Shown piece after piece: positions 21,164-34,049 of a DNA stretch of 64,000 nt. The stretch's first letter is position 1. Every line of letters starts with the position of its first letter. Position numbers and translations under genes: made by a program. A model generated the notes under the pieces. That model worked only from the letters and a program-made list of their open reading frames with translations, had not been told where the DNA came from and searched no databases. The stretch comes from Deltaproteobacteria bacterium (GTDB taxonomy: Bacteria > SAR324 > JACQKK01): positions 66,520 through 130,519 of the forward strand of contig JAOUEW010000004.1 of the NCBI GenBank assembly GCA_029858505.1, written 5' to 3'.

Positions 21164-22360
21164 CTACATCAAAGACCGCCCTTCCCGCATCAGCCGAGAA
21201 ATTTCTTTGCCCATTTCTTCGGCCCGGGCGTCCATGTCCATTTCTTTGTACAGGTTATACAGCGATTCCATCAATTTTAATTTTTCCGAGTTTTTCTGCT
21301 TGGGGGTCATTCGCGAGAGGTCCACTTCTTTCATCCCGTTGGCCAGCGACAACACGGCCTGCTTGGGAGATTCAAACCGCTGTTGATTGCGCGCGATTAA
21401 AAACCAGCCCTTGTGCTTTCCGGCATAGCGTTCATCTTTAATGGCCTCGTGATAAAACGCGTTGGCGATGGTGGCTAAGCTGGCCAGGGTTTTCATCACG
21501 TCGGCGGGGGCTTTTCCCGTGAGTGGCACAATGGCATGGTGCCGGTTGTCGCGGTTAAACCGGGTGGTAAAGGCTTTCAGCTTACCCATGTTGTCTATCT
21601 GTTCGGCTTCTTTCCCGCTGCCAGCCACCACTCCTTCGTAAAAATCGATGATGGCCTGAAACACCTGGGCCTTGCGGAAGGCAATGTCTCCCTTTTTTTG
21701 CTGGTACAGCGACTTGCTGGAGGTCTTCATGGATTTTTCGTATTCGGCCAGCTGCACCAGGGCGTCATAATAGCGGCCCCCTTGCAGGTAAAACTGCACG
21801 ATTTTTTCCCGAGAATTGAAGTCGTTGGGATTTTTCTTCACCCCCACCATGGTCATCATTTCTTTGTGCACGGCGGCTTCGGCCCAGGCCATGTCTCGGA
21901 AGTCTGGCCCCAATAGTTTGGCCACCGACACCATCACCCCCTGGGCCGAAAGGTTTAGGGAATGGTCTCCCTTTTGGATGGAGGTGGACAGGGCATCCAC
22001 CGCCTGAAACAGAAAAATTTGTTGCAGGTGGGGGTCGTGGGCGGCCTTGGAGGCGCTTTGCAGCAACAAGCGCCCCAGGGCCTCGAAAAACAGCGAGGCC
22101 TGGGGGTGGTTATAGTAAAAAGTCAGGAATTCTTGTTCGGCTTCGGCCAGGGCGCTTTCGGGGGTGGAGCGCCCCAGCAGTTGCTCCATGTCTTTCAGGC
22201 CCACCTTGGGTTTTTTGCCAAACAATTTCCCCTGGGCTTTTTCCTCCAGGGCCAGGGCTTGTTCCAGCTGGGGTTTGGAGCGGGCATCGAAGGCAAAGGT
22301 GATGGGCCCCGGCATGTAGGATTTGCTGGCAGGTTTTCCGCGAAGTGGGGGTTGGGCCAT
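21164..22360 (-). CDS. Unrecognised 398-residue helical protein
   Basis: I do not recognise a family. From MAQPPLRGKP the protein is almost entirely predicted helix, with repeated helix-turn-helix pairs (EFLTFYYNHPQASLFFEALGRLLLQ, YYDALVQLAEYEKS, DIAFRKAQVFQAIIDFYEGVV) that suggest a TPR-like or alpha-solenoid fold. There is no signal peptide or membrane segment, so it is probably cytoplasmic. The frame is open 51 codons further upstream, but that part runs through an element B-like hairpin and is not protein-like. It is third in a minus-strand run after the DUF2333 gene and the 1136-residue gene and may work with them. Confidence 0.7.
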   Translation of the reverse strand: MAQPPLRGKPASKSYMPGPITFAFDARSKPQLEQALALEEKAQGKLFGKKPKVGLKDMEQLLGRSTPESALAEAEQEFLTFYYNHPQASLFFEALGRLLLQSASKAAHDPHLQQIFLFQAVDALSTSIQKGDHSLNLSAQGVMVSVAKLLGPDFRDMAWAEAAVHKEMMTMVGVKKNPNDFNSREKIVQFYLQGGRYYDALVQLAEYEKSMKTSSKSLYQQKKGDIAFRKAQVFQAIIDFYEGVVAGSGKEAEQIDNMGKLKAFTTRFNRDNRHHAIVPLTGKAPADVMKTLASLATIANAFYHEAIKDERYAGKHKGWFLIARNQQRFESPKQAVLSLANGMKEVDLSRMTPKQKNSEKLKLMESLYNLYKEMDMDARAEEMGKEISRLMREGRSLM

Positions 22361-22443
22361 GGTGGATTCGTTGGAGTGAAAGGTGAACAAAGAGAAGTTC
22401 TTTCGAAGCAACAATTGAAACAATGAAACAAAAAGGGTTCCTT

Positions 22444-22483
22444 TGTTGTATCGGTTTTTGGGGGGGGATGTCACCCCCCAGTA
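22444..22483 (+). repeat. GC-hairpin at the 3' end of the 1136-residue gene, element B-like
   Basis: GGGGGG-ATGTCA-CCCCCC followed by AGTAAG lies exactly over the stop codon (22471-22473, minus strand) of the large unknown gene. The CCCCCCAGTAA ending matches the element B copy at 39626-39676, so the last residues (TGG) of the protein derive from the repeat. Confidence 0.5.
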
Positions 22484-25400
22484 AGTTCGATCAGCCGATG
22501 GGGGGGAATCCACCCCCGCAGTTCATCGGCCAGGCTGTCGGCGTTGGAAATGTCTACCCAGATCACGGTGAACAGGCCCTTCAACCGGTACAATTGTTCC
22601 ACCAGCCCCAGGGTCATGGCCCGCTGGTTGGCCAGGGGGGCCAGCACGAACACGGTTTTTTTCTCCAGCCGATGGCGGATGGCGAGCACTTCTTTGGATC
22701 GCAGGGTGAAGGTTTGGTGGTCGGCCTCTTCGGCGAACAAGTCTTCCATGAAATTCAGCCGTCCCTCCGGCCGCACGGCTTTGATCCGCAGGGAAAGGCG
22801 GGTCATCCAACGGTCTCGCATCCGCAAGCCTTGCTCTTTTTGGTGGTTTTCCCGGGCCATCACGGCGGCTTGGCGGGCGGCTTGTTGAATGGCCGTCAGC
22901 CCGGCTTCGTCGAGAAACTCCGGGGCCACCGCCAGAGCCTGGGCCAGGGTTTCCAGCCGGCTGGCCCAGGCGGCCATGTGGGGGGCCTCCCACAGCGACA
23001 ACCCGAACCGGCGGTATTGTTCCAACACTTCCTCCACCTGGGTGCGGTACAGGTCGAATTCTTCCTCTAACCGGGGAAAGCGGGCCAGCCAACTGGCCAC
23101 TTCCGACAGGGTGGCCAAGCTTTCCCGGTTTTTGTGGGACGGGTGCACTTCTTTAAACCGGCCATGGTCGGAGGATGTGGCGGCCAACAGCAGCACTTGT
23201 TCGGCGGGCAGTCGGGCGGTGTCTTCCAGGGTGGGGGGGCCTGGGCGGCTGAGTTTCAGCACGGTTTCGGCCAGCAAGGCCCCCAACAAGGACAGGCTGG
23301 TTGTCCGCACCAGGGCCGCCCAATCTTCTCGCCAGCCAGTCAGGGCGGCCAGGGCCTGGGCGGTGGGGCCGCCCTCGGGGCGGGAAAGGGCCGCGGCCAG
23401 CCCCGTGGCCAGCCGGGCGGAGGCCGGGGGAAGCTCCTCCGGGCGTTCTGCCCAATGGGGTGAGAGTTCCACCGTCCAGCTGGCTTCTCCCAGGCGCAGG
23501 GTGCGCGAGGAACACAGCCAGGCCAAGGGTGCCAGGGGGCGGGGCAGAAAGAATTCGGCTTCCCCTGGGCTGTCTCCCTGGGGCGGGGAGCCGGGCATGC
23601 TTTGGGCCAGGGGGGCCAGCTGCTTTTCAATCAGGGCCCACAGGGCGTCGGCCTGGGGGGTGGCGGCCAGCCGGTGGGCCGCCCGGGTTTCCGCCGGGTT
23701 GGGGGTTCCGCTTTCCGCCAGCAACACCAACACGGCGTTCACGCCTTCCTGCCCCTGTTTGCCTTCTTGCAGGGCCCTGGCCCGGGTGTCGGCCAGCCGC
23801 TGGGTAAAGGCTTCCAGGGCGCGGCGGTGGGCTTCTTCCAGCCGGGCGGAATGAAACCGGGGGTCTTCCGCGCCTTCTTCTTGCCGCTGGGGCAAAAGAA
23901 AAGGGTCTTCGTGGCGGCGTCCTCGTTCCTGGGCTTGCGGCTCGGTTTCTCCCGGATGGAGGCTGCCGGGATCGAACCCATAGGCTTTCAGCCGGACTTT
24001 ATCGAACACACCCTGGCGGAACAGCAGCAGAGCCAGTTGATTCCGGGAGACGTTCAATCCCTTCTCCCACACCAAGTGATGGTGAATGCGGTCGAACAAT
24101 TGATTTTGATGGGTTTTGAACAGGCTCTCCAGCCGATGGGCAATGAACCGCCGGGTCAGTTGAACGATGCGCCGGGTCATCAGGGCTTGATAGGCCGGGG
24201 CCAGCACCGCGGAGGGGGTTTTGGCCCCCAGCAAAGTGCCGATTTCATGGCGGCTTAGGTCCACCACCCCTCGGCCGAGTTTGTTTTCTTCCAGGGGATG
24301 GGCTGGGCCATCGCTCCCCACCGACAGCCCCAACAGCTGCCCCGCCGCCGCCACGGCGTGATCTGCCGGGGTGGTGCCCCTGGCCAGCCGATAGTTGGTG
24401 AGGGGCAGCAGGTGGTGCGCTCCAGTAAGGAACCGCCGCATCTGTCCGGTTTTTTCTTGCTGGCTGCGGGCGCTTTGGGCCTGGGTCAGCTGCTCGGCCA
24501 GGGTTTTTTCCCAGCCGTCTTTGCCGAACAACATTTCACCCAGACGGGTGACCACCTGTTCCAGGTCTTCCGCGGTGAGGGGAATTTTTTGGGCAAAATT
24601 TTTGGCCACCCCGGTGGAGGGCACCTTGGGGTTCAGGCTGTGCAGCTTGGTGATGTCGAAATGTTTCAGCAAGAAGCCCCCCAGCAGGCTGCGGGCCGCC
24701 ATAGCCCGGGGGGGGAGCTGATCCATTGGCCGTCGGTTGCCGTAATCCCCCAGGTAGGTTAGTTCCACCGTTTGCTTCATCAGGTCAAAACGGGTTTCGT
24801 CTTGCAACACCCGATTGGCCGGGGGGCGGGGGGTGCGCTCCAGCTTCACCAAAAACTTGCGCAGGGGAGACGCCACCTCCAGATATTCCAACGTGGGGTG
24901 GGCCAGGGGCACCGTTCGGGCGTACAGGTAGGGGTCCCGGTCCAGCCGTTTGCGCAACACCAGCAGTTCCAACTGGCGGAGAAACCGGTCTCGTTCAGGT
25001 TCCATTTGCAGCAGGCCAATCCGCAGTTCGTGGGCCAGGGTTTTTTTGTCGGCCACCAGGGCGGCCCGGCCGGGCAGCAAAAAGTCTCCCAGCCGCAGCT
25101 TTAACTCCACCAAAGACACCCCCTGGGTCAGCAGGTCCAGCAGGGGGGCTGTTTCTGCCGAGTTTTCATCTTCCAGCAGGGCTTCTAAAAACTGGGCGAA
25201 CAGCAGGGCGTAGCGGTCGCGGGTTTCGGCCAGCAGCAACAGGTTCACCACCTCGCCTTCGGTAAGCCCGCCCTCGGCCTCCAGGCTGGCCGCGTCGGCC
25301 ATGCGGGTAAATTTTTTGCGGGCTTCTTCCGGCAGAAAATCCACCTCGGCCATGTCTCTCAGCAGGGGGAGCATCGAGGCCGCGCGGGCCCCCCGCTCCA

Positions 25401-25881
25401 TAAAATCCTGTTTCAGGGCAGTGCTGCGGCGGATGGTTTTGGGGGCCTGGGCCAGGGTCAGGTCCACCGGGCTGATCAGCCGCTCCCACAGGCCGTTCTC
25501 CACCCCGCTGATAAACGCCCACTGGTTGTGCTTCAACAGGGGCTCCAGCAGCAGCACCCCCCCGTTGGTGGCGCGGATGCCGTTGAAGTCCAAATGCATC
25601 CCCCGTTCGGGGCGGGGTCCCACCGCCCGCAGCCATTCCAGGCTGCCTTTCAAAAAAGATTCCGGGCGCAGGTGTTTTAGGGTGGTGGTTTTGGCGGTGA
25701 CCCCTTTGCCGTATTTTTCGTTGGCCAGGTTGATTTCGCCGGTTTGCTGATAGCGCTGCAGATGGATAAAGGTTTCTACCCCCCGGGCGGCCAGGCGGTC
25801 CACCAGGTCCATTAACCAAGGGGTGTTCACCAGCCCCTGATCGCTCGACGCCGCGTTGGAATATAATTCGTAGCGGATCAT
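22471..25881 (-). CDS. Unrecognised large protein (1136 residues)
   Basis: I cannot place this protein in any family. It is long, Leu-, Arg- and Glu-rich and largely helical, without signal peptide, membrane segment or an obvious nucleotide-binding loop. The first 170 residues (MIRYELYSNAASSDQGLVN ..., GGVLLLEPLLKHNQWAF) look more mixed alpha/beta. The last 70 (KTVFVLAPLANQRAMTL, TVIWVDISNADSLADEL) look like alternating strands and helices. A Glu/Gln/Arg-rich linker lies near 640-680. It starts 14 bases after the DUF2333 gene and is followed by the 398-residue helical protein, suggesting one operon. Its frame is intact over 3.4 kb, so it is under selection. Function unknown. Confidence 0.8.
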   Translation of the reverse strand: MIRYELYSNAASSDQGLVNTPWLMDLVDRLAARGVETFIHLQRYQQTGEINLANEKYGKGVTAKTTTLKHLRPESFLKGSLEWLRAVGPRPERGMHLDFNGIRATNGGVLLLEPLLKHNQWAFISGVENGLWERLISPVDLTLAQAPKTIRRSTALKQDFMERGARAASMLPLLRDMAEVDFLPEEARKKFTRMADAASLEAEGGLTEGEVVNLLLLAETRDRYALLFAQFLEALLEDENSAETAPLLDLLTQGVSLVELKLRLGDFLLPGRAALVADKKTLAHELRIGLLQMEPERDRFLRQLELLVLRKRLDRDPYLYARTVPLAHPTLEYLEVASPLRKFLVKLERTPRPPANRVLQDETRFDLMKQTVELTYLGDYGNRRPMDQLPPRAMAARSLLGGFLLKHFDITKLHSLNPKVPSTGVAKNFAQKIPLTAEDLEQVVTRLGEMLFGKDGWEKTLAEQLTQAQSARSQQEKTGQMRRFLTGAHHLLPLTNYRLARGTTPADHAVAAAGQLLGLSVGSDGPAHPLEENKLGRGVVDLSRHEIGTLLGAKTPSAVLAPAYQALMTRRIVQLTRRFIAHRLESLFKTHQNQLFDRIHHHLVWEKGLNVSRNQLALLLFRQGVFDKVRLKAYGFDPGSLHPGETEPQAQERGRRHEDPFLLPQRQEEGAEDPRFHSARLEEAHRRALEAFTQRLADTRARALQEGKQGQEGVNAVLVLLAESGTPNPAETRAAHRLAATPQADALWALIEKQLAPLAQSMPGSPPQGDSPGEAEFFLPRPLAPLAWLCSSRTLRLGEASWTVELSPHWAERPEELPPASARLATGLAAALSRPEGGPTAQALAALTGWREDWAALVRTTSLSLLGALLAETVLKLSRPGPPTLEDTARLPAEQVLLLAATSSDHGRFKEVHPSHKNRESLATLSEVASWLARFPRLEEEFDLYRTQVEEVLEQYRRFGLSLWEAPHMAAWASRLETLAQALAVAPEFLDEAGLTAIQQAARQAAVMARENHQKEQGLRMRDRWMTRLSLRIKAVRPEGRLNFMEDLFAEEADHQTFTLRSKEVLAIRHRLEKKTVFVLAPLANQRAMTLGLVEQLYRLKGLFTVIWVDISNADSLADELRGWIPPHRLIELTGG

Positions 25882-27736: not shown

Positions 27737-28927
27737 ATGGCATACGGAGACGATGAGTTGGCGTTTCGCAGGATGATCTGGGTGCTGTGGGGGCTTTCCA
27801 TGGCCTTTCCGTTGGCGGGAATGGTGATGCTGGCCATGGACCCGTCTCTGGGGCAAATTTTTTACGGGGCCCCGGCCCGGCCGGGGTTGGTTCATCTGTT
27901 GACCCTGGGGGGCGTGCTGGGGTGCTTTCATGCGTTGTATGCCGTGTGGCTGCGCCGGCTGTATGGGGTGTGCCGCTGGCAGGACCGGCTGCTGCCCTGG
28001 CTGGCGGGGCTGCATGGGACCGGGGTGGCGGTGCTGGCGGCGGGGTTCATGGCCCAAGACGCCCTGTGGCTGTATGTGGGGGGGCATTATCTGGTGCCCA
28101 TGGGGGTGGGGGCCGCGGCGGTGACCGGCGTGCTGGCCAGCTGGCAGCGCGAGCCGGGCCTGCCCCGAAACTTGTTGGCGCATTTGCCCCTGGCGGGGCT
28201 GTTTGTTACCGCGGGCTTTGGGGTGATGATGGTAACCGTGGTGTTTAAAGGGGGCTACCATTTCGAATTTCCTCACGCGGTGCTGATGCACGCCTTGTCG
28301 GCGGGGTTTTTGTTTGCCTTGCCCCTGTTGATGGTGGCGGACAGGATGGAAGACGGGCAGGTGAACCCCCGGTTGGGCGGGGTGTTGTGGAGCACGCTGC
28401 CCGGAGGGCTGGGGGTGGTGGTGATGGCCGTTGGGCTGTGGGCGCAACCTGCCGCCCCCTGGTATCAGGCCGGGTTGGGGCTGGCCGCCCTGGGGGCGGT
28501 GCTGGCGGCCCGCCCGCGCGCGGCAGACGTTCAGCCACTGCGGTCGTTTCAGCGGCTGCCCTGGCTGGCGGTGGCGGTGATGTTGGTGTTTGCCGCCATA
28601 AGCCTGAGCGATGACATCGCGCCGGACGGGGCCTATACCCTATCGTTTTTCATCATTACGTTGATGCTGTTGGGGGTGGTTCTGCCGCCCTTGATGCTGC
28701 ATGGCTGGGCGCTGCCCCGGGGCCAAGCCCCCTTTGTTTACCCCTGGGAGCCTGGCTTGTATGCCCTGATGCAATGGACCGGCACCGGCATGGTGCTGGC
28801 GGGGCAAACCACGGGCATGGGGGGGTTGATTCGAAGCGGCGGGGTGTTTTGGGCGGCGGCCCTGGGGGCCATGGCTTGGCGAACGCTGGACAGCGCGGGG
28901 ATTAAGATACGGCGGCGGTGGCTTTAA
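27737..28927 (+). CDS. Multi-pass membrane protein with conserved-looking histidines, unassigned
   Basis: The 396-residue product has about eleven hydrophobic segments. Several carry histidines in positions that could bind haem or metal: VHLLTLGGVLGCFHA, LHGTG, GGHYLVPMG, LAHLPLAG and FPHAVLMHALSAGF. The 'HLxTLG' helix recalls NnrS and haem-copper oxidase subunit I-like families, but I cannot make a firm assignment. ATG 27737 follows GAGGAGAAC at 27721-27729. It is divergent from the SCO1/SenC gene, and its last 26 bases overlap the convergent phosphodiesterase gene. A role in respiratory-chain assembly or haem/copper handling is inference from context. Confidence 0.7.
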   Translation: MAYGDDELAFRRMIWVLWGLSMAFPLAGMVMLAMDPSLGQIFYGAPARPGLVHLLTLGGVLGCFHALYAVWLRRLYGVCRWQDRLLPWLAGLHGTGVAVLAAGFMAQDALWLYVGGHYLVPMGVGAAAVTGVLASWQREPGLPRNLLAHLPLAGLFVTAGFGVMMVTVVFKGGYHFEFPHAVLMHALSAGFLFALPLLMVADRMEDGQVNPRLGGVLWSTLPGGLGVVVMAVGLWAQPAAPWYQAGLGLAALGAVLAARPRAADVQPLRSFQRLPWLAVAVMLVFAAISLSDDIAPDGAYTLSFFIITLMLLGVVLPPLMLHGWALPRGQAPFVYPWEPGLYALMQWTGTGMVLAGQTTGMGGLIRSGGVFWAAALGAMAWRTLDSAGIKIRRRWL

Positions 28928-29843
28928 TCCGGGCGGCTTCTTGCTCGTAGGTGGTTTGGTTATGGGCCAGCGAGGCCACAATTTCGCCGACCCCCGGTTC
29001 AACTTTGGCCAACAGTTGAAACAATTCCAGCACCTGAATTTTAATGAACCCCGCTTGGGCAGCGTGCAGTTCTACTTTCTCCCGGTCGTTCAGCATGCCC
29101 ACCGGCAGGTTGTGCTTTTTCTCCATCTGGCCCTGGGCCAGAAACTCTTGAATCACCCGGTCGGCCCATTGCTTGGCCTGCTGAAAGTCTTTTCCAGGGT
29201 TGGAGATGTCGGCGGCCTTCAGCAAACAGCGCTCTACCAGCAGAAGAAAATCGGTGTCGGCAAAGGACCAGGGCTTGGAAAGGGTCTTTCCCAGATCATC
29301 CAGAAAGGCCCGGTGCTGGGCAAAGTCGGTGGCCAAAATGGCGTGGCCCAGCAGTGTGCGGGCTTCTAGGCGGGATTCTTCCGTCAGGGGCGCCAGAAAA
29401 TCCATCCGGGGTTCTTCCATCAGCCGCAGGGTTTCGTCCAGCGAGTGGTTTTCCAGCACCGCCCGGAAGTCGTAACGCTGGGCGCGATCGGAGCGGATAT
29501 TGACCTCCCAGTTGTTGTCACGGCCAGGGTGCTCCAGGTCGTGGCACAGGGCGGCCACCATTAAAATAAACCCGTGAAGCGGAGGAATGTTTTCCCGCAA
29601 CGTGGGGAGAAACAGCATCCAGGCCAGGGTGTTGGTGGTATCTACGGCGTGATACAGGTTGTGGTAGGAGTTGTCGAGATAATGGCGGCTGACTTCTTCG
29701 ATGAACAAATCCAGCTTGATCCGATCAATGCCCAGACGCTGGGGAAACTTGGTGGTTTTAAACAAATCTTTGGTGAACGCCACCAAACCTTCCCTCGAAT
29801 CGAGGTCGAAAACGGGATAATTCCTTTGGAATGGGTTGGTCAT
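28902..29843 (-). CDS. Class I (eukaryotic-type) 3',5'-cyclic nucleotide phosphodiesterase
   Basis: The 313-residue protein is a clear PDEase_I catalytic domain, the fold of animal cAMP/cGMP phosphodiesterases. The order and ligands are all visible: YHNLYHAVD (H61 general acid, H65 metal), HDLEHPGRDN (H101 and D102), ENHSLDET (131-138), ILATDF, AADISNP with D212, and the invariant Gln263 in AQAGFIK that holds the purine. There is no regulatory GAF or PAS domain and no membrane segment. The Met at 29843 is chosen; one 14 codons upstream has its AGGA touching the ATG. It overlaps the convergent membrane gene by 26 bases. It should hydrolyse cAMP and/or cGMP; specificity cannot be read. Such enzymes are rare in bacteria. 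Confidence 0.9.
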   Translation of the reverse strand: MTNPFQRNYPVFDLDSREGLVAFTKDLFKTTKFPQRLGIDRIKLDLFIEEVSRHYLDNSYHNLYHAVDTTNTLAWMLFLPTLRENIPPLHGFILMVAALCHDLEHPGRDNNWEVNIRSDRAQRYDFRAVLENHSLDETLRLMEEPRMDFLAPLTEESRLEARTLLGHAILATDFAQHRAFLDDLGKTLSKPWSFADTDFLLLVERCLLKAADISNPGKDFQQAKQWADRVIQEFLAQGQMEKKHNLPVGMLNDREKVELHAAQAGFIKIQVLELFQLLAKVEPGVGEIVASLAHNQTTYEQEAARIKATAAVS

Positions 29844-30373: not shown

Positions 30374-32308
30374 ATGAAGGATTCCCTGTTTCCCGTGCCG
30401 GCTGGATTTTCCCGCCCAGGCACCCTGGACTATGAAACCTATCAAAAAATGTACCAAGAATCAGTGGCCTACCCAGAAAAGTTCTGGGCCAAGCAGGCCG
30501 AACGCCTGCATTGGTATAAACGATGGGATCGGGTGCTGGAACACGACTATGCCCAGGCCCGCCACCAGTGGTTCATGGGGGGGCGGTTGAATGTGTCGGA
30601 CAACTGCCTGGACCGGCACCTGGCCCAAAAGGGAGACCAGCCCGCCTTGATTTGGGAGGGAGACGACCCGGGGGAGTCGAAAACCCTGACCTACCGTCAG
30701 TTGCATCAAGAGGTCAGCCGTTTTTCCAATGTGTTGAAAAAGAACGGCGTAAAAAAGGGCGACCGGGTGACCATTTACATGCCCATGATTCCAGAACTGC
30801 CCGTGGCCATGCTGGCCTGCACCCGGGTGGGGGCCATCCATTCGGTGGTATTCGGCGGGTTTTCTCCCGAATCGCTGAAAAACCGCATTGAAGACTGCCA
30901 GAGCCGGTTTGTGATTACCGCCGATGAAGGACTGCGGGGGGGGAAGAAAATTCCCCTGAAAGACAACGTGGACAAGGCCCTGGCGGGCTTGGGGGGAGAT
31001 CCGCGCTGCGTGGTGGTGCGCCGCACCGGGGGCCAAGTGCACTGGCAGGCCGGGCGAGATGTATGGTGGCATGAAGAAATGGCCTCGGTGGGTGCCGACT
31101 GCCCCCCGGAACCCATGGACGCGGAAGACCCCCTGTTTATTCTGTACACTTCCGGCTCTACCGGAAAACCCAAGGGCGTGCTGCACACCACGGGGGGATA
31201 TTTGCTGTACGCCTCCATGACCCATGAACTGGTGTTCGACTATCACCCGGGAGACGTGTACTGGTGCACCGCCGACTGCGGCTGGATTACCGGGCACTCT
31301 TATTTGGTGTATGGGCCCCTGGCCAATGGGGCGGTGACGGTGATGTTTGAAGGCATTCCCACCTATCCCGATGCCGGGCGGTTTTGGGACGTGATTGACA
31401 AGCACAAAGTGAACATTTTCTACACCGCCCCCACCGCCATCCGGGCCTTGATGCGGGAGGGAGATGATTTCGTCACCCGCCGCAAGCGCACGTCTTTGCG
31501 GCTGCTGGGCACCGTGGGAGAGCCCATCAACCCGGAAGCCTGGATGTGGTATCACAACGTGGTGGGGGGCGGCACCCGCCCCATTGTAGACACCTGGTGG
31601 CAAACGGAAACCGGGGGGATTTTGATTTCTCCCCTGCCGGGGGCCGTGCCCACCAAGCCTGGCTCTGCCACCCTGCCCTTCTTTGGCATTCGCCCGGTGA
31701 TTGTGGACGACCAGGGGAAAAAACTGGAGGGGGCCTGCCAGGGCAACCTGTGCATGGAGTTCCCCTGGCCGGGGCAGATGCGCCGGGTGTATGGGGATGA
31801 CAAGCGTTTCTTCAACACGTACTTCTCGCAGTTCCCCGGCTATTACTTTACCGGCGACGGCTGCCGCCGCGACGAAGACGGCTATTACTGGATCACTGGC
31901 CGGGTGGACGACGTGATCAACGTGTCGGGCCACCGCCTGGGCACCGCCGAGGTGGAAAGCGCCCTGGTGGGCCACCACGCCGTGGCGGAATCGGCGGTGG
32001 TGGGGGTGCCTCACTCCCTCACCGGCCAGGGCATTTACGCCTTCGTGACCCTGAAGGCGGGCCAAACCGAAAGCGATGCCCTGCGCAAGGAACTCATCCA
32101 GCACGTGCGCAAAGAAATCGGCGCCATTGCCACACCCAGCGCCTTGCAATGGGCCCCCGCCCTGCCCAAGACCCGCTCCGGCAAAATCATGCGCCGCATC
32201 CTGCGAAAAATCGCCGCCGGGCACATCGAGGAAATCGGCGATACCTCTACCCTGGCCGACCCCGCCGTGGTGGACAAACTGGTGCACGAACGGATTGTGG
32301 TGGGGTAG
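30374..32308 (+). CDS. acs: Acetyl-CoA synthetase (AMP-forming)
   Basis: Acs activates acetate to acetyl-CoA through an acetyl-AMP intermediate. At 644 residues it is full length. It contains the AMP-binding P-loop ([11 protein letters not shown] near 258), [31 protein letters not shown], and the C-terminal [11 protein letters not shown] motif whose lysine is the catalytic and acetylation-regulated residue. The N-terminal lid ([16 protein letters not shown]) is typical. It has its own promoter region upstream. The XRE-ImmA gene starts 35 bases after its stop in the same direction, so read-through is possible. Confidence 0.97.
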
Positions 32309-32343: not shown

Positions 32344-33564
32344 ATGGGTCCCGTGGAAAAGAGCAAGAAAAAACCAGAAAGTATCGCCCTCATTACCCCA
32401 GAGATACTTACCTGGGCGATGAAGCGCGCCCGGATGGAACCGTCTTCCCTTGCGAAGAAAATGAAGAAAATGGATATTTCCGAGAGTTCTATCCGTCAAT
32501 GGGAAGAGGGTTCGGGGAATCCAACGTTTAGTGAAGCGCAAGATTTGGCGAAAAGCCTTTACATTCCGTTTGGGTATCTTTACTTGTCGAAACCGCCCAA
32601 AGAAAACATTCCCATGCCCGATCTGCGGACGGTAAGAGGAGAACAGTTAGAATTTAGTGCCGAGTTACGCGATGTGGCGATAAACATTTTGGGAATGCAA
32701 GAGTGGTACAGAGAATACTTAAAAGAAGAGGGTGTAAAACCGCTGCCCTTTGTGGGGAAGTTCTCTTTGAGTACGGATACGAAGGTTATCGCGGAGGATA
32801 TCCGAAAAACTCTGGACCTGAGAGAGGAGGCCCGCAAGCAGTTTACGAAGGATGCTTTTTATAGTGGTCTTATTCAAAAAGCCGAAAATGCGGGAATCCT
32901 GGTGATGAAAAGTGGACGAGTGGGTGAGAATTACACTCGCCCATTGGATCTTGGCGAATTTCGTGGTTTTTCGTATTCAGATCCCTTGGCTCCCGTTGTT
33001 TTTATCAATGGCAAAGATTACGAAGCGGCTCAAATTTTCACCCTCATCCATGAGGTTGCCCATATCTGGCTAGGAGAAAGCGGAGTGTCGAACCTGGATA
33101 TTTTTCAAGGGATCGGCAACCGCAAAGACATTGAAAGAAAATGCAACCAAGTGGCGGCCGAGGTTCTTGTGCCCGAAGAAATCTTTTTAAAAAAATGGAA
33201 TGATGAATTTGACCGAGACAAAAACATAAAAAAACTTTCCATCTATTTTAGGGTCAGCCATGCGGTGATTGCATTAAGGGGAAAGGAGTTAGGGAAAATT
33301 TCACAAAGTGAGTTTTCTGGAGTTTACCAAGCGGATAAAAGAAAATGGGATGAAAAAAAGAAAAAACAAAAAGAGAGACAAAAAACCAAGAAAGGAGGCC
33401 CGAGTTCGAATAAGGTACTGGTTATCCAAAACAGCAGACTTTTTACTCGGACTGTATTGCAAAGCGTGTTTTCGGAAAGAACCCTTATTCGTGAGGGGGC
33501 TCAGTTGTTAGGTGCAGCTCCCGATAGATTGGGCAAACTGGCCCAAGAGGTTGGGCTGGCATGA
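32344..33564 (+). CDS. XRE-type HTH plus ImmA/IrrE metallopeptidase
   Basis: Residues about 20-75 are an XRE helix-turn-helix (LAKKMKKMDISESSIRQWEEG), followed by the IPMPDLRT motif typical of this fusion and an ImmA/IrrE peptidase with HEVAH at 236-240 and a downstream Glu-containing helix. The C-terminus has a Lys-rich stretch (about 330-355) and then a short helical end. Proteins of this type act as antitoxins or derepressors that cleave a partner under stress. Its stop overlaps the start of the DUF4411 gene (ATGA, 33561-33564). The gene is clearly AT-richer, with more AAA/GAA/TTT codons, than acs and hisC around it, a sign of recent acquisition. Confidence 0.88.
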   Translation: MGPVEKSKKKPESIALITPEILTWAMKRARMEPSSLAKKMKKMDISESSIRQWEEGSGNPTFSEAQDLAKSLYIPFGYLYLSKPPKENIPMPDLRTVRGEQLEFSAELRDVAINILGMQEWYREYLKEEGVKPLPFVGKFSLSTDTKVIAEDIRKTLDLREEARKQFTKDAFYSGLIQKAENAGILVMKSGRVGENYTRPLDLGEFRGFSYSDPLAPVVFINGKDYEAAQIFTLIHEVAHIWLGESGVSNLDIFQGIGNRKDIERKCNQVAAEVLVPEEIFLKKWNDEFDRDKNIKKLSIYFRVSHAVIALRGKELGKISQSEFSGVYQADKRKWDEKKKKQKERQKTKKGGPSSNKVLVIQNSRLFTRTVLQSVFSERTLIREGAQLLGAAPDRLGKLAQEVGLA

Positions 33565-34049
33565 GCCAACTCCTGTTTTTGGATGCGAATATTTTTATAC
33601 AGGGGGGCAGGCGTTATGCAAAAGACGTATTTCCGGGTCTTTGGGAAGGGTTGGAAAGAGAATTGCTAAGCGGAGAAATGGTTTGTTCGGTAATCCCCGT
33701 GTACGATGAAATAAAAGAAGGAAATGATTGGCTTGTCCCTTGGGTCAAGCGGGTGAAAAAGGGTTTTCTCTCTATTAAGGACAAGGAAACTCAACAACTT
33801 TATCAAAAAATTGCGGATTGGGTGGTAGAAAAATATCAACTCACACAAAACACACGCAGGTTTTTGGATGGCGCTGATCCTTGGTTGATTGCAAAGGCGA
33901 TGGTAATGGGAGCCACCGTGGTGACATATGAAACCTCGAAAGAAAGCAAGATCAATATTCCGGATGTGTGCCGTCATTTCAACTGCGAATACATATCTGG
34001 GCCAGAAGTAATGGTAGAACTCATGAGAAGACTCAATTTGAGATTTTAA
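33561..34049 (+). CDS. DUF4411 family protein (PIN-like, putative toxin)
   Basis: The 162-residue product is a small PIN-like protein of the DUF4411 type: LFLDANIFI with D8, E50 in VYDEIKEG, and FLDGADPWLIAKAM (D103, D106) are the acidic residues expected of a PIN ribonuclease site; VVTYETS follows. It is translationally coupled to the upstream XRE-ImmA/IrrE gene, an arrangement predicted to be a toxin-antitoxin module. If so, this is the RNase toxin and the upstream protein its antitoxin. Base composition is low-GC like its partner. Activity and target are unknown. Confidence 0.8.
   Translation: MSQLLFLDANIFIQGGRRYAKDVFPGLWEGLERELLSGEMVCSVIPVYDEIKEGNDWLVPWVKRVKKGFLSIKDKETQQLYQKIADWVVEKYQLTQNTRRFLDGADPWLIAKAMVMGATVVTYETSKESKINIPDVCRHFNCEYISGPEVMVELMRRLNLRF

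Follow-up and report, generated by a model that had tools for sequence, protein, structure and literature searches.

A gene on the minus strand of the window (the whole stretch of 64,000 nucleotides that was analysed, from a bacterium of the SAR324 lineage) encodes a class I (PDEase_I) cyclic-nucleotide phosphodiesterase (PDE) of 313 aa (28902-29843). We consider it probable that this protein is a soluble, cytosolic two-metal enzyme which converts cAMP to 5'-AMP and thereby ends cAMP signals, and that the ancestor of one family of uncultured SAR324 bacteria acquired the gene a single time, most likely from a eukaryotic donor, with vertical inheritance since. By family, the protein is an ordinary class I PDE; the unusual part is its host lineage and the complete conservation of the gene there. 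A whole bacterial family in which a complete, conserved single-domain class I PDE accompanies a standard bacterial cAMP inventory would be an example from nature of exchange between domains of life in the turnover of second messengers, and the protein, free of regulatory domains, could be studied as a minimal class I enzyme.

Family membership and catalytic residues

The ORF begins with an ATG at 29843 and ends with a TAA at 28904-28902. Another in-frame ATG upstream (29885) would extend the protein to 327 aa, and the family alignment starts at about residue 7, which is compatible with either start. A scan for promoter and terminator signals gave none better than those in shuffled sequences. 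A preliminary description of the locus, made from the sequence alone, regarded the protein as a class I PDE consisting of a bare 313-residue catalytic domain and proposed a PF00233 profile search as a check. This search gave a match of 209.7 bits (E 6.7e-62, cut-off 24.8 bits) over positions 1-236 of the 238 in the profile, and no other Pfam domain was found above its cut-off. Among PDB proteins, PDE9A was the best sequence relative (145 bits, E 3.6e-41), and both of these scores are far above chance; further matches were PDE4B/D, TcrPDE and PDE7A (122-124 bits) and TbrPDEB1 (113 bits). A profile of the SAR324 PDE family also ranked PDE9A first, followed by the same PDB groups (PDE4, kinetoplastid PDEs and PDE7A). 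The structure was predicted by AlphaFold with nine family sequences supplied alongside, and the model (pLDDT 92.9, pTM 0.92, 15 helices) has the all-helical class I catalytic fold. The closest structures to this model in Foldseek were those of PDE9A (TM 0.92-0.94, rmsd 1.6-1.8, 27-28% identity), while PDE4 reached a TM of about 0.89.

These results agree with the earlier reading. Placement in another HD-type phosphohydrolase family, which the preliminary description had named as the outcome that would speak against class I, was not borne out: PF00233, at about 210 bits, was the sole family above cut-off, no HD-family (PF01966) match to the protein was found up to E = 1, and the model folds like PDE9A and PDE4. 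The assignment to the bacterial HD phosphohydrolases was thus rejected. The Metallophos domain (PF00149) of class III PDEs (CpdA) was also absent from the protein in the Pfam search.

All the motifs quoted in the preliminary description were found in the translation, and they were compared across ten family members sharing 37-64% identity. The motif YHNLYH (residues 60-65; 29649-29666, minus strand) aligns with PDE9A and contains His61 and His65, which, by the roles usual in class I PDEs, we take to be the general acid and a metal ligand. HDLEH (residues 101-105; 29529-29543, minus strand) holds the metal ligands His101 and Asp102 as well as His105, and ENH lies at residues 131-133. AADISNP (residues 210-216; 29196-29216, minus strand) holds the metal ligand Asp212 and the nucleotide-pocket residue Asn215, and Gln263 and Phe266 (29046-29057, minus strand) align with the purine glutamine and the hydrophobic clamp Phe of PDE9A. 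Each of the single residues named here is invariant in the ten members, as are Glu131, Asp173 and Trp226. The metal ligands of PDE4B are His238, His274, Asp275 and Asp392 (PMC13095499), whose counterparts in the window protein are His65, His101, Asp102 and Asp212. The strict class I signature (PMC1431542) agrees at every position except the last, where Trp112 (29508-29510, minus strand) is a clade-specific departure present in nine of the ten members and replaced by Phe in L010. Since only a single position of a short motif deviates, and the profile, the fold and the metal ligands all agree with class I, the class I membership was kept.

Judged from the residues and the fold, 3',5'-cAMP would be hydrolysed to 5'-AMP by the standard two-metal class I mechanism, in which His65, His101, Asp102 and Asp212 would hold the two metals, His61 would act as proton donor, and the adenine would be held by Gln263, Phe266 and Asn215. 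As the protein has no regulatory domain, its activity probably depends on its expression and on substrate, or on partner molecules.

Cyclic-nucleotide signalling in the genome and the predicted substrate

The preliminary description had taken the gene to imply a cAMP or cGMP signal and had suggested a search for class III cyclases in the rest of the genome. In this genome (2.79 Mb, 14 contigs), where the window PDE is the only gene matching PF00233, two complete class III cyclases were found, one with GAF/PAS and the other with CHASE2 domains, together with nine cNMP-binding proteins. Both cyclases retain the metal-binding Asp and the Lys/Thr substrate residues (DKYIGD...NYTVIGD; DKYEGD...DYTMMGN). 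The Lys/Thr pair marks Thr-subtype adenylate cyclases (class IIIb), and guanylate-type residues were seen in neither cyclase. HisKA/HATPase modules are found in two of the cNMP-binding proteins and PAS in another; the set also includes a response regulator, a pentapeptide-repeat protein and a CRP/FNR-type regulator, and five of the nine carry a G-E...P-R-S-A phosphate cassette, the pattern expected for cAMP binding. Three proteins (L078, L079 and L080, on contigs C10 and C5 of the genome, G000) have an N-terminal cyclic-nucleotide-binding domain, joined in two of them to a histidine kinase and in the third to PAS, the rest of that protein being kinase-like; these architectures suggest putative cAMP-controlled phosphorelays. 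In the proposed scheme, the two adenylate cyclases would supply cAMP, its readers would be the cyclic-nucleotide-binding domains that are joined to histidine-kinase, receiver or pentapeptide modules, possibly also the CRP/FNR-type regulator, and the PDE would end the signal.

No class II PDE was found in the genome. It contains five metallophosphoesterases. L085 (G000 C4:90543-91211), whose motifs come nearest to those of class III PDEs and stand in the same order, scored 22.5 bits against the CpdA cut-off of 225; the other four were judged by eye. The top NCBIfam match of L085, below cut-off, was an anti-phage phosphoesterase model, and no PDB relatives of it were found. Because the genome has neither a class II PDE nor a recognisable CpdA, the class I PDE is the leading candidate for the enzyme that removes cAMP. 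Cyclases and cNMP-binding proteins were present in all 52 SAR324 genomes searched; the PDE therefore appears to have been added to an existing cAMP system in one family. Other SAR324 families have cyclases without it, so the cAMP system of the phylum does not depend on this enzyme. Three genomes of a sister SAR324 family (G012, G024 and G032) gave 45, 47 and 51 class III cyclase matches, yet have no class I PDE.

We favour cAMP over cGMP as the substrate because Asn215 is invariant, the Glu of PDE9A is missing at position 216 and the cyclases are of the adenylate type, with some uncertainty since the nearest solved relative, PDE9A, is cGMP-specific. An enzyme preferring cGMP as PDE9A does, or hydrolysing both nucleotides, would fit the rank of PDE9A as best match in both sequence and fold, but we regard it as unlikely. 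The position after the pocket Asn215, which is Glu in PDE9A, is Pro in the window protein and Pro, Thr or Ser across the family (Glu in 0/10), and the purine-pocket position 234, which is Tyr in PDE9A, is Phe in the window protein and in eight of the ten members, with Tyr in two. With Pro216 and Phe234, the window protein carries neither of the residues that mark the PDE9 subfamily. The Lys/Thr residues of both cyclases also speak against a cGMP substrate, and the likeness to PDE9A may only mean that both proteins are little derived.

Distribution, locus and origin

Exactly one copy of the class I PDE was found in each of the ten genomes, representing all ten sequenced genera, of the SAR324 family to which the window belongs, and none in 42 other SAR324 genomes (31 from the order's other family and 11 from elsewhere in the class). 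No full-length PF00233 match was found in about 1,000 distinct other bacterial genomes, sampled as 331 across the domain, 396 relatives of one genome with a weak match, a largely repeated sample of the domain and 195 of another phylum. The weak matches in other bacteria were HD-like fragments of 18-32 bits, and the single one examined was an ordinary HD domain; they were thus rejected as class I PDEs. Scanning 84,980 species by sequence pattern recovered eight loci only, all in SAR324-type MAGs, which carry the label SAR324 cluster or Candidatus Lambdaproteobacteria, or, for a single one, Deltaproteobacteria; the patterns were derived from the SAR324 PDE family, and more distant bacterial members could escape them. 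Plasmids, phages and viral contigs gave no match, and carriage by phage or plasmid was rejected. The confinement to one family holds for the sampled bacteria; other bacterial class I PDEs may exist, and annotations of them may already stand in protein databases. No published description of a SAR324 class I PDE was found in the part of the open-access literature that was covered. This distribution supports the earlier suggestion that the gene was acquired in an unusual way.

In the literature, class I counts as the PDE class of eukaryotes and class III as that of bacteria (PMC1431542, PMC8115329), and class I is present in almost all eukaryotes (PMC1431542). Given the one-family range in bacteria against this near-universal presence in eukaryotes, a single gain from a eukaryote is favoured, and the donor, argued from distribution alone, was most likely a eukaryote. 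The opposite direction, in which class I PDEs arose in bacteria and either passed from an ancient SAR324-like lineage to early eukaryotes or descended from a common bacterial ancestor with losses elsewhere, is improbable in our judgement. The deep divergence within the SAR324 family (37-64% identity) and the minimal single-domain architecture would agree with it, but the sampled bacteria point to one family of one phylum, almost all eukaryotes have class I (PMC1431542), and one gain is simpler than many losses. There is equally little chance that the SAR324 clade is bacterial in descent and branches off outside all class I PDEs of eukaryotes, the class having started as a bare bacterial domain that was transferred to early eukaryotes; if it were so, an enzyme class central to animal cyclic-nucleotide signalling would be bacterial in origin. 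The SAR324 clade could also help to root or date the class I PDEs.

After the favoured single gain from a eukaryote, the gene would have been kept by descent. Its conservation through the family at 37-64% identity, its usual single locus and its neighbour-like composition (GC 0.555 and GC3 0.697, inside the range of neighbouring genes) show that it has long been inherited vertically and came neither from contamination nor by a recent transfer into the window genome.

A TPR-like gene is divergent from the PDE gene in seven relatives (L015-L021), and a gene with an RNase-H-fold exonuclease domain (55-72% identity) is its convergent partner in seven loci (L014-L019 and L021); four relatives also have genes for an EF-G-like GTPase and a flavin oxidoreductase farther along the locus. 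The TPR-like family is uncharacterised, with about 30-59% identity among its members. Across family members, the distance correlation with the PDE was 0.60 for the TPR-like gene and 0.15 for the exonuclease. The setting in the window differs from that of the relatives. On one side lies a convergent gene for a 396-aa protein without any Pfam or NCBIfam match (27737-28927, plus strand), whose 3' end overlaps that of the PDE gene by 26 bases, and on the other a divergent gene for acetate-CoA ligase (Acs; 30374-32308, plus strand; NCBIfam TIGR02188, 1018.8 bits). The closest relative, L014 (53%), likewise has Acs beside the PDE, and in L021 Acs lies nearby. In enterobacteria, acs is cAMP-regulated. 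The Acs-PDE link, seen only in these three loci, is suggestive and not general. A functional operon with the PDE was rejected, as the gene stands alone on the strand opposite to its neighbours with no cyclase adjoining.

Other genes of the window were also inspected. A gene distantly related to the TPR-like neighbour (about 20-23% identity) lies at 21164-22513 on the minus strand, 7 kb from the PDE gene, in a run with a DUF2333 protein and a 1136-aa protein without Pfam or NCBIfam match (22471-25881, minus strand). At 32344-34049 (plus strand), an HTH and IrrE/M78-type protein is followed by a DUF4411 (PF14367) protein; their ORFs overlap, their GC is 0.45 and 0.43 compared with 0.60 for the window, and from these features they look like an acquired toxin-antitoxin-type pair.

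The conserved neighbours of the PDE (TPR-like gene, RNase-H-fold exonuclease and EF-G-like GTPase) are non-signalling genes, and the context names no pathway. Together with Trp112, which is specific to the clade and near a metal-binding motif, they would agree with a PDEase_I fold reused for another phosphodiester or nucleotide (a 2',3'-cyclic nucleotide, a cyclic dinucleotide or a metabolite), cAMP being a minor substrate. Such a reuse seems very unlikely, because all class I purine-binding and catalytic residues are invariant and the genome holds a cAMP-type signalling inventory; hydrolysis of cAMP is the reading that we prefer. Eukaryotic contamination, to which the description of class I PDEs as eukaryotic (PMC1431542, PMC8115329) and an assembly that appears to be a MAG might point, is hardly credible and was rejected, since the gene is intronless, matches its neighbours in GC and GC3, lies on a 208-kb contig with bacterial genes on either side, just as the preliminary description had placed it among bacterial neighbours in a bacterial genome, and recurs in ten genomes at one locus conserved in most of them, which makes it an inherited trait.

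Comparison with known phosphodiesterases

The catalytic domain of human PDE9A, a cGMP-specific class I enzyme, is the most similar known system by sequence and fold, and shares the metal ligands, the Gln and the Phe clamp with the window protein. The latter comes from a bacterial host and differs further in that no Glu stands beside the pocket Asn, the purine-pocket Tyr is replaced by Phe, and the signature ends in Trp112. Compared with the cAMP-specific class I enzymes (PDE4/PDE7, TbrPDEB1 and TcrPDE), it shares the pocket Phe and, as is known for PDE4, pairs Asn with Pro, but it is a bare domain of 313 aa without a UCR, GAF or FYVE regulatory domain. The bacterial HD-domain phosphohydrolases (PF01966) share a remote HD metal motif with it, whereas their PF00233 matches are only partial (18-32 bits), the one checked scoring 53.6 bits for HD and 29.3 bits for PF00233. 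The class III bacterial PDEs, such as CpdA and Rv0805, have the same presumed job in bacterial cAMP turnover, but they perform it with a metallophosphoesterase fold unrelated to that of the window protein.
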